From NCBI RefSeq assembly GCF_021646685.1, contig NZ_JAKJHW010000005.1:186001-250000 (forward strand): a stretch of 64,000 bases of DNA, read 5' to 3'. Numbering within the stretch: position 1 is the first letter of the stretch; every line of letters starts with the position of its first letter. Source of the stretch: Pseudalkalibacillus salsuginis. Lineage in GTDB: Bacteria > Bacillota > Bacilli > Bacillales > Fictibacillaceae. Made by a program: the position numbers and the translations under genes. Below, in pieces: positions 38,525 through 53,386 of this stretch. A model generated the notes under the pieces. That model was not told the origin of the DNA and searched no databases. It was given only the letters and a program-made list of their open reading frames with translations.

Positions 38525-39178
38525 ATGAAATTCTTTATTGATACAGCGAATATTGACGAAATACGCGAAGCCTATGAGCTTGGGATATTAGGTGGGGTGA
38601 CGACGAACCCATCTCTGGTCGCTAAAGAAGGTGTTGATTTTCACGATCGTTTGAGGGAAATCACCTCTGTCGTTGTCTCAGAATCTGTCAGTGCTGAAGT
38701 GATCGGTCTGACTTACGATAAAATGGTTGAAGAAGGGAAAGAGCTAGCAGCAATCGCTCCTAACATCACTGTTAAAGTCCCTATGACGAAAGAAGGCTTG
38801 AAAGCGGTTAAAACGTTTACTGAACTGGGAATCAAAACAAACGTGACACTGATTTTCTCAGCGAATCAGGCACTGCTTGCTGCTCGTGCAGGTGCTACGT
38901 ATGTATCTCCGTTTTTAGGTAGATTGGACGATATTGGACAGGACGGATTGTCGTTGATTTCGGAAATCGCCGAAATTTTCAATGTGCATAAGATCAAGGC
39001 TGAAATCATCGCAGCTTCCATCCGTAACCCGATTCATGTTACGGAAGCTGCACTTAGAGGAGCTCACATATCCACACTCCCTCCGAAGGTATTGTCCCAA
39101 TTGATGAACCATCCATTGACGGATCAAGGCATAGAGAAGTTTTTAGCAGATTGGAACGCTGGTCAGAATAAAGACTGA
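38525..39178 (+). CDS. tal: Transaldolase (fructose-6-phosphate aldolase-like subfamily)
   Basis: Pentose-phosphate pathway enzyme of 217 residues, the short TalAB/Fsa-like type (B. subtilis YwjH). Schiff-base Lys84 in ITVKVPMT, Asp6 in FIDTANI, and [10 protein letters not shown] near residue 27. ATG 38525 uses AAGGAG (38507-38512) at 12 bases; GTG 38513 abuts the SD and is unlikely. Located between fbaA and murAB as in B. subtilis. A TTGACG hexamer 40 bases upstream lacks a well-spaced -10, so its promoter is uncertain. Confidence 0.93.
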
Positions 39179-39301
39179 TTTTTCAAAATTCAAACATTAA
39201 TCCGTAGAGGTAAATTTTGGATAAAAATAGATTTTTTGCTGACACTAAAGGTAACAGTTTTGACTTTTTTATTTTGCAGAAGGCGAAGAAGGGAGAAAGC
39301 A

Positions 39302-51716: not shown

Positions 51717-52157
51717 ATGTTATCGTTTCGTCCAGCTGAAACGAATGATACCCCATCTATAAAAAAGTTTGTTGCACAGGCGGGACTTTCTAATGAGGGA
51801 ATTGAAGAATGTATCCAGATGTTCATCATCCTTGAAACAGATAAAAAGAAAATGGCAGGGACTGTTGGATTGGAACGATTCGGGGAAAGCGGACTGATCC
51901 GTTCGCTCGTTTTGGACAAAGAATATTCATCAGAAGAATTGCTGCTTCGTCTATTGACAGCAATTATCCGATTAGCTGACCAACAAGGGATCAAAACGGT
52001 ATATTTACTCACAAAAGTAACCTCCATTTTCTACACGCTGGGGTTTATGGAAATCCCGTATGATAAAATACCAGAAAGCTTATTGAAAAGCGCACATCTG
52101 CAGCAATATGATAAAGATCAAATTGCAATCATGAAACGGAGCCTCGATTTCAATTAA
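51717..52157 (+). CDS. ywlB: GNAT-family acetyltransferase, YwlB type
   Basis: 146 residues. The N-terminal FRPAETNDTPSIKKFVAQAGL and central MAGTVGLERFGESGLIRSLVLDKEYSSEELLLRLLTAIIRLADQQGIKTVYLLT show the GNAT fold, though the usual acetyl-CoA R/QxxGxG/A loop is weak (residues about 75-82). It is probably an N-acetyltransferase related to ArgA-type ornithine or arginine acetylases by position (B. subtilis ywlB between spoIIR and ywlC). Substrate unknown. AAAGGAGAGG SD before ATG 51717. Downstream 80 bases lead into the DnaA-box cluster. Confidence 0.8.
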   Translation: MLSFRPAETNDTPSIKKFVAQAGLSNEGIEECIQMFIILETDKKKMAGTVGLERFGESGLIRSLVLDKEYSSEELLLRLLTAIIRLADQQGIKTVYLLTKVTSIFYTLGFMEIPYDKIPESLLKSAHLQQYDKDQIAIMKRSLDFN

Positions 52158-52232
52158 AGACAGATACTTTCGATCAGTATAACGGTAACTAAGTTATTAG
52201 TAAGTTTGACCGTTTTTCTTCACACACAATAG

Positions 52233-52415
52233 TTATCCACAGTGTTATCCACAGAATCCGAACTCTTGTGGATAGATCGTGGAAACCCATATATAATCTA
52301 CAGTTCAAAGGAGTACTTACCCACATGGAACAGTTGATAACTACAAAATGGAATGTGGAAAATGTGGATAACATTAAAGAACATCCATCAATCAAAGAAG
52401 CAGCAATGTGGATAA
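52233..52415. promoter_or_regulatory. DnaA-box cluster spanning the ywlC upstream and 5' coding region
   Basis: Perfect TTATCCACA at 52233-52241 and 52245-52253 (+), and perfect TGTGGATAA at 52363-52371 and 52407-52415 (-). One-mismatch boxes: 52267-52275 (-), 52317-52325 (+, TTACCCACA) and 52353-52361 (-). Seven sites in 183 bases. B. subtilis has a DnaA-binding cluster at ywlC. Confidence 0.85.
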
Positions 52416-53386
52416 GAGAAGGAGAGGTCATCGCCTTCCCGACTGAAACCGTATATGGGCTCGCAGCCAATGCATGGTCCAATGAGGCTATTGAAAAAAT
52501 ATTTAAAGCCAAAGGCCGCCCGAGTGACAATCCCCTGATTGTACACATAGCGAACAAACGCCAGTTGGAGCAAGCTGCATCCTCATGGAACGAAACGGAA
52601 GAGCGTTTGATGGACCGGTTCTGGCCAGGACCGCTCACGATCGTTTTACCGAAAAATGACCTGATTGCTGAACGTACAACTGCGGGCTTAGAAAGTGTCG
52701 GCGTAAGGATGCCTGATCATCCAGTAGCACTCGGATTGATCGAAGCATGTGGTCTGCCTTTGGCGGCTCCAAGCGCAAACCGATCCGGAAAGCCGAGTCC
52801 AACCATAGGCGAGCATGTGTATCAGGATCTGAACGGCAGGATTAAAGGGATCATTGATGGAGGTCCCACAGGTGTCGGTCTGGAATCAACGGTCGTAGAA
52901 GTGACAGGGGAAACTGTGACCATCCTTCGGCCAGGTGGTATTACGAAAGCCCAGCTGGAAGCGGTCGTAAGTGATGTAAAATGGGATCCAGCCTTGCTGG
53001 AAACCGAACAAATACCAAAATCTCCGGGTATGAAGTACACGCATTACGCACCCGAAGCCCCATTGTACTTGATTAAAGGAGATAGCGCATTTTTCCAATC
53101 CCAAATTGAAGGATATCAACGAGAAGGAAAAAAGGTTGGAGTCCTTGTCAGCGATGAATTAGCAAGACAGCTGCGAGCGGATGAAGTGAAAAGCCTAGGC
53201 TCAGCAATACAGATTCAAGGGGTCGCTCAAAAGTTATATCATCAGCTACGGGCATTCGATGAAACATCGGTGGATGTAATATTAGGAGAAATCTATCCGA
53301 TTGAGGGGATGGGAGAAGCCCTCATGAATCGCCTTCTTAAAGCCGCAGGCAATCGTGTGATTTCAGAGGATAAAAAACGGGACTGA
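52325..53386 (+). CDS. ywlC: Threonylcarbamoyl-AMP synthase (Sua5/YwlC)
   Basis: Makes threonylcarbamoyl-AMP for t6A37 in tRNAs reading ANN codons. 353 residues. YrdC/Sua5 catalytic domain (about 30-215) with EVIAFPTETVYGLA, KAKGRPSDNPL, LPLAAPSANRSGKPSPT and GPTGVGLESTVV; linker; C-terminal Sua5 domain (about 230-353) with KYTHYAPEAP. Length of the two-domain Sua5, longer than TsaC. ATG 52325 uses AAAGGAG 12 bases upstream. Three DnaA boxes lie within or just at the start of the coding region, so binding of DnaA might affect it. Confidence 0.94.
   Translation: MEQLITTKWNVENVDNIKEHPSIKEAAMWIREGEVIAFPTETVYGLAANAWSNEAIEKIFKAKGRPSDNPLIVHIANKRQLEQAASSWNETEERLMDRFWPGPLTIVLPKNDLIAERTTAGLESVGVRMPDHPVALGLIEACGLPLAAPSANRSGKPSPTIGEHVYQDLNGRIKGIIDGGPTGVGLESTVVEVTGETVTILRPGGITKAQLEAVVSDVKWDPALLETEQIPKSPGMKYTHYAPEAPLYLIKGDSAFFQSQIEGYQREGKKVGVLVSDELARQLRADEVKSLGSAIQIQGVAQKLYHQLRAFDETSVDVILGEIYPIEGMGEALMNRLLKAAGNRVISEDKKRD

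Follow-up and report, generated by a model that had tools for sequence, protein, structure and literature searches.

The closest described counterpart of the locus studied here is the ywlC region of Bacillus subtilis, listed as region 6 in the in-vitro table of DnaA-binding regions of PMC4447404 (this and the other papers are cited from excerpts). A position matrix counts nine sites in that region, the apparent Kd is 0.25 µM for the ATP form of DnaA and 0.45 µM for the ADP form, and DnaA "appears to directly repress" the gene (PMC4447404). Additionally, expression from PywlC-lacZ is lower in a B. subtilis mutant with about twice the amount of DnaA (PMC12112137). Review summaries state that joint deletion of six B. 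subtilis clusters leads to early initiation (PMC5295017, PMC13220808). A passage of one of these reviews also states that clusters with significant roles in initiation control in B. subtilis have not been identified (PMC5295017), and about 10-fold overproduction of DnaA is described as causing no over-initiation (PMC13220808).

Two other systems invite comparison. The likeness to datA of Escherichia coli extends at most to a DnaA-box cluster outside oriC that would lower free DnaA. A datA-like site is recognised by an IHF site and by stimulated hydrolysis of DnaA-ATP. B. subtilis is described, in the excerpt of PMC13220808, as having neither IHF nor datA. The B. subtilis promoter ParrA, which drives an antisense RNA inside the dnaA region, likewise has a DnaA site in its -35 region and a perfect TATAAT, and has been shown experimentally (PMC12112137), whereas the ywlC promoter considered below is predicted.

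Here, we analysed a 64-kb stretch of the Pseudalkalibacillus salsuginis genome (the window), and show that selection maintains the box array at ywlC in many Bacillus-like bacteria. The corresponding B. subtilis cluster is already known; what is added is the phylogenetic depth, the codon-level selection and the promoter geometry. Among the titles and abstracts searched, we recognised no earlier report on conservation of the ywlC site or on its codon constraint, and we claim no priority.

A dense array of DnaA boxes at the start of ywlC

Seven DnaA boxes, four perfect and three with one mismatch, lie within 183 nt of the window (52233-52415; Table 1), and this recount agrees with an earlier note on the same DNA. 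The note had also related the array to the known B. subtilis cluster, and host gene and place are indeed common to both. Its mention of two in-gene boxes is right for the perfect ones and too low overall, as a third box inside ywlC carries one mismatch; the three occupy codons 10-16 and 28-31. No other 250-nt stretch of the window is as rich in DnaA boxes as the array. It holds four of the five perfect boxes in the 64 kb, against 0.47 expected, and 0 of 100 shuffles reach five; when one mismatch is tolerated, the enrichment over the entire window is only mild (25 boxes vs. 16 expected, a count reached by 1 of 100 shuffles). Perfect boxes number 60 in the whole genome of 4.29 Mb. Elsewhere in the window (38983-39224), three near-match boxes, one of which fits TTATNCACA, fall within about 240 nt in and just 3' of a transaldolase-like ORF, probably by chance.

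The array and dnaA share one contig (C17), dnaA at about 10.2-11.6 kb and the array at 238.2 kb. The array does not sit at the dnaA locus, as oriC would: dnaA and its box clusters are at C17:10-12 kb and the array at C17:238 kb. With the perfect boxes adjoining dnaA about 226 kb away, the array is oriC-proximal, and ywlC points away from oriC.

The host gene was identified by the Pfam domains Sua5_yciO_yrdC and Sua5_C and by NCBIfam TIGR00057 (L-threonylcarbamoyladenylate synthase), above its cut-off. The Pfam domain starts at residue 30, and nearly all in-gene box codons precede it. Of the neighbours, prmC and spoIIR were identified by profile, prfA by eye and ywlB by position only (no Pfam match at E 0.001), in comparison with what we take to be the B. 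subtilis gene order around ywlC. A terminator scan of 52120-52480 found none.

Like B. subtilis region 6, the array lies upstream of ywlC and downstream of the gene at the ywlB position, with seven sites within one mismatch here vs. nine matrix sites there. It belongs to another genus and differs in its upstream boxes, which read + + - without an inverted pair, and in the box at codons 28-31, which replaces the common Bacillaceae one at the Y-P codons. This comparison with the B. subtilis type used loci of near relatives, i.e., B. sonorensis, B. swezeyi and B. glycinifermentans.

Table 1 Features of the ywlC region in window coordinates, with box retention among the eight genomes of the genus.
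Feature	Position	Strand	Remarks
N-acetyltransferase-like gene at ywlB position	51717..52157	+	Best match ArsN2, below its cut-off
DnaA box 1	52233..52241	+	Perfect, TTATCCACA; ywlB-ywlC intergenic; at most one mismatch at same offset in 8/8 genus genomes
DnaA box 2	52245..52253	+	Perfect; starts 12 nt after box 1; at most one mismatch in 7/8 genus genomes
DnaA box 3	52267..52275	-	One mismatch, CTATCCACA; covers -35-like hexamer TGGATA (52269-52274)
Predicted sigma-A-type ywlC promoter	52269..52297	+	TGGATA - 17 nt - TATAAT (52292-52297); consensus match only, 10/12
GTGGAAA	52279..52285	+	In promoter spacer; possible degenerate DnaA box, below the one-mismatch cut
ywlC Shine-Dalgarno AAAGGAG	52307..52313	+	Read from sequence
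DnaA box 4	52317..52325	+	One mismatch, TTACCCACA; overlaps A of ywlC ATG; at most one mismatch in 8/8 genus genomes
ywlC (tsaC/sua5)	52325..53386	+	Threonylcarbamoyl-AMP synthase, 353 aa
DnaA box 5	52354..52362	-	One mismatch, TTTTCCACA; in ywlC; at most one mismatch in 7/8 genus genomes
DnaA box 6	52363..52371	-	Perfect; in ywlC (codons V-D-N); perfect in 8/8 genus genomes
DnaA box 7	52407..52415	-	Perfect; in ywlC (codons M-W-I-R)

Conservation among relatives

In each of the seven other genomes of the genus, six or seven of the boxes recur at the same offsets with at most one mismatch. Box 3 has at most one mismatch in five of the eight genomes and two mismatches in three, and box 7 is perfect in six and has one mismatch in two. 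In the eight-genome alignment, 28 of 35 leader columns inside boxes are invariant vs. 21 of 67 outside, and all seven columns of GTGGAAA are invariant as well. Inside boxes, 6 of 9 third codon positions are invariant; for codons not in boxes, the figure is 5 of 28 in the 5' region and 2 of 40 downstream of it.

To this we add a wide set of 87 ywlC loci, composed of 80 named loci (the best 80 of 593), which lean to close relatives and include some near duplicates, and seven more of the genus. Kinship was handled by thinning to 60 divergent loci, with less than 80% pairwise identity over 240 nt. Boxes were counted in the 300 nt before an anchor, the PTETVYGL codons of ywlC. At least one perfect box was found in 84 of the 87 loci, at least two in 65 and at least three in 46, while at least four boxes within one mismatch occur in 78; perfect boxes are 41-fold denser before the anchor than in the remainder of the loci. 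A perfect box is absent from these 300 nt in three loci (L018, L041 and L059).

Beyond this set, the span before the anchor was 400 nt, in which at least one perfect box is a loose criterion. Of the 36 order-level loci, 35 contain one or more perfect boxes and 32 two or more; the 36 are top-scoring loci, several of which resemble species among the 80 named (L100/L024, L103/L023). The 60 class-level loci comprise 20 top-scoring ones and 40 chosen to spread families, and two (L155, L170) were dropped as they have no anchor. Among the 58 anchored loci, at least one perfect box occurs in 35 and at least two in 21. The other 23 lack a perfect box over this span, some of them with ywlC near oriC, and the array is therefore dispensable. 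No box was found in families f50, f53, f61 and f71 (2, 2, 3 and 1 anchored loci, respectively), and family f62 has a single one-mismatch box in one of three loci.

Promoter geometry

Outside the genus, 57 of 79 Bacillaceae loci carry an inverted box pair (a + box, then a - box 12 nt on; at most three mismatches summed over both boxes). In 39 of the 57 loci, a -10-like hexamer begins at one and the same distance, 35 nt downstream of the first base of the second box of this pair, with the next commonest offset found in seven; when the 39 are aligned, TTG is the consensus where a -35 element would lie. The upstream boxes of these Bacillaceae are fixed relative to a promoter-like element. In the window, the upstream set is + + -, with the predicted -35-like hexamer inside box 3, and the genus has TATAAT in the promoter columns of four genomes and AATAAT, ATTAAT or TATATT in the other four. 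Because the hexamers and box arrangement of the window differ from those of most Bacillaceae, the fixed geometry is not established for the genus. Considered together, the -10-like hexamer at a fixed distance and the box over a -35-like hexamer suggest promoter control among the selected roles, and such control is probably part of what selection maintains.

Upstream and in-gene boxes tend to occur together: in-gene boxes are present in 57 of 66 loci having at least two upstream boxes vs. 5 of 28 with fewer (94 anchored of the 96 order- and class-level loci; Fisher p ~3e-10, relatedness ignored).

Promoter geometry and the repression reported in B. subtilis point to transcriptional repression, a role absent from the earlier note. 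One could go further and propose that DnaA represses ywlC, tying tRNA t6A modification to replication status, and that titration is negligible. The same geometry, the box over the -35-like hexamer and the B. subtilis report all favour this proposal, yet the number and affinity of the excerpted B. subtilis sites look excessive for one promoter, and deletion of the six clusters leads, per the review summaries, to early initiation. We consider regulation as the only role to be rather unlikely.

Two side observations concern the leader. The inverted pair of Bacillaceae ywlC leaders (e.g., L046, L069 and L075), which lies about 210-240 nt upstream of the anchor, sits at the centre of a longer palindrome with covarying flanks: at the first two flanking pairs, 31 and 36 of the 57 loci are Watson-Crick (shuffles: mean 16, maximum 25), and pairs further out show no excess over shuffles. 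A T-rich stretch often follows, and the palindrome reads as a hairpin whose stem is made of the DnaA boxes, perhaps the terminator of ywlB; it is absent from the window. Tentatively, a third upstream box keeps a near-equal spacing from the second and has opposite strands between lineages, as if flipped, although counting from the -10 instead pairs the boxes differently.

Sister clusters

The perfect-box clusters of this genome are found at dnaA (oriC), tsaD/ABC-F, jag/mnmE, htrA-like/rlmH, upstream of yqeG, and at ywlC. By the listed ORFs, the four sister clusters are intergenic, the one at tsaD lying between convergent genes, and boxes inside a gene start occur only at ywlC. For the comparison with B. 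subtilis, we take gcp to be tsaD, yydA to be rlmH and ydiF to be the ABC-F gene. In the excerpted table of PMC4447404, five of the six strongest B. subtilis regions outside oriC have a counterpart in this genome: the gcp/ydiF, trmE/jag, yydA and yqeG/sda clusters in addition to ywlC; no counterpart of ywcI/vpr was recognised among the perfect-box clusters of the genome. By plain count, four of the five recognised non-oriC clusters adjoin RNA-modification genes, two of them in the t6A pathway: ywlC (window 52325), tsaD (L003 2188), mnmE (L006 15130) and rlmH (L007 3025). The genome also has a perfect-box pair 62 nt apart at C13:478.7 kb, inside an ORF resembling a mobile-gene remnant. Two ORFs, L007 3397-3942(-) and L005 2052-2486(-), look similar by eye (SRTVDxIEL...FDFSEV...KMPPYLQ), like remnants of one mobile gene.

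We compared 30 genomes chosen by known ywlC state, defining a cluster as at least four boxes in 400 nt. All 18 array-positive genomes also carry at least one of the tsaD, mnmE and rlmH clusters; among the 12 array-negative genomes, seven retain a sister cluster and five have none, with sister-site counts that are generous as they use the best 400 nt within a 1.5-kb flank. The distance from ywlC to dnaA is 155-562 kb in the nine single-contig genomes of the 18 array-positive ones. In one array-negative genome (G068), ywlC lies about 109 kb from dnaA; position alone is therefore insufficient to explain the array, which weakens oriC proximity as its sole reason.

These data bear on the proposal that the boxes serve solely to sequester DnaA near oriC, with ywlC as an accidental host. 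The co-occurrence of sister clusters, the ywlC-dnaA distances, and the lack of an obvious promoter to control between the convergent genes at tsaD are in line with it. However, a sink could be placed freely, and the boxes keep a fixed distance to a promoter-like element in many loci, as well as conserved codon positions; furthermore, ywlC is near oriC in array-negative genomes as well. Titration as the only role seems to us improbable, if not strongly so. Titration as one of the roles is plausible: both the joint occurrence of the sister clusters and the reviewed effect of deleting six clusters in B. subtilis fit it. Work by Okumura from 2012 is reported to count ywlC among those six clusters, in line with the matching number.

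Codon-level selection

For the 79 loci that do not belong to the genus, codon use at the in-gene boxes was compared with that of the same genes elsewhere. Three box positions, -88, -76 and -58 nt relative to the anchor, share one reading phase. At the -88 box, GTG is used for 62 of 64 valines (19.5 expected) and GAT in 54 of 56 cases (40.5 expected); three loci (L071, L078 and L080) are missing from this row as their starts were set at the GTG of the box. The -76 box uses GTG in 33 of 36 cases (11.6 expected) and GAT in 40 of 43 (31.0 expected), and the -58 box TAT in 48 of 51 (37.7 expected) and CCA for 58 of 61 prolines (19.2 expected). The excess persists in the thinned set, with GTG at 48 of 50 (14.1 expected) for -88 and 24 of 26 (7.9) for -76, and CCA at 41 of 44 (15.2) for -58. 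As a control, GTG is used at 65 of 181 N-terminal valines outside box positions, a count that includes extra codons from two loci (L024, L054) whose start codons a simple rule set too far upstream.

Within the genus, all eight genomes use GTG at box 6 (2.4 expected) and box 7 has ATA for 6 of 6 isoleucines (0.9 expected), eight related genomes amounting to few independent events. Box 7 stands there in place of the -58 site, which the genus does not retain (CCA in 3 of 6 cases; 2.1 expected); outside the genus, the box-7 position shows only a weak codon excess.

The earlier note had suggested a selected titration or remodelling site, from the survival of the array in this genome even within coding sequence, and had proposed a codon-level conservation test of the in-gene boxes. 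Loss in close relatives was not seen, the test is strongly positive and holds after thinning, and synonymous codons are fixed at in-gene boxes that are kept across relatives. These results leave little room for the boxes as a by-product of constraint on the protein, of codon bias at the 5' end or of an RNA hairpin, a reading that we consider very improbable. In its favour, the inverted pair is a hairpin core with covarying flanks in many Bacillaceae loci, but that pair is absent from the window, to which a hairpin as the cause is inapplicable. Pure protein constraint is rejected on the fixed synonymous codons, as GTG is not particularly favoured at other N-terminal valines, and the in-gene boxes, save the end of the last, precede the Pfam domain. 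A chance cluster, for which nothing speaks beyond the shortness of the motif, is rejected as having next to no probability, given the shuffles of perfect boxes and the conservation at fixed offsets.

Proposed role and implications

We regard it as likely that a selected two-part DnaA-binding array at the ywlC promoter represses ywlC and, with its sister clusters, titrates DnaA. Its upstream boxes would extend into the predicted promoter, one of them covering the -35-like hexamer here, and a second set would act from conserved places in the first 31 codons. DnaA, taken as the binder from motif identity and from B. subtilis, would bind both sets and repress ywlC. Because it lies about 226 kb from oriC and would be duplicated soon after initiation, the array may hold DnaA away from oriC, jointly with the tsaD/ABC-F, jag/mnmE, htrA-like/rlmH and yqeG-upstream clusters. 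For P. salsuginis, we infer DnaA binding, ywlC repression and titration by analogy, with both repression and a share in holding DnaA as the most likely outcome. We also put forward, tentatively and as a possibility, that DnaA boxes spell much of the protein stretch before the TsaC domain in many Bacilli (W-x-V-D-N-x-V-D-N ... Y-P-Q), and that the array is both a promoter-locked switch of a t6A gene and a member of a redundant group of DnaA sinks that are retained or lost piecemeal among lineages.

With these results, a site known from one model species becomes an old, measurable element. With codon positions conserved in this way, sequence comparison becomes a clean means of asking whether DnaA binding at ywlC matters. 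The sister clusters, being lost patchily, lend themselves to natural comparisons of how far titration vs. local gene control sets initiation in Bacillus-type bacteria.
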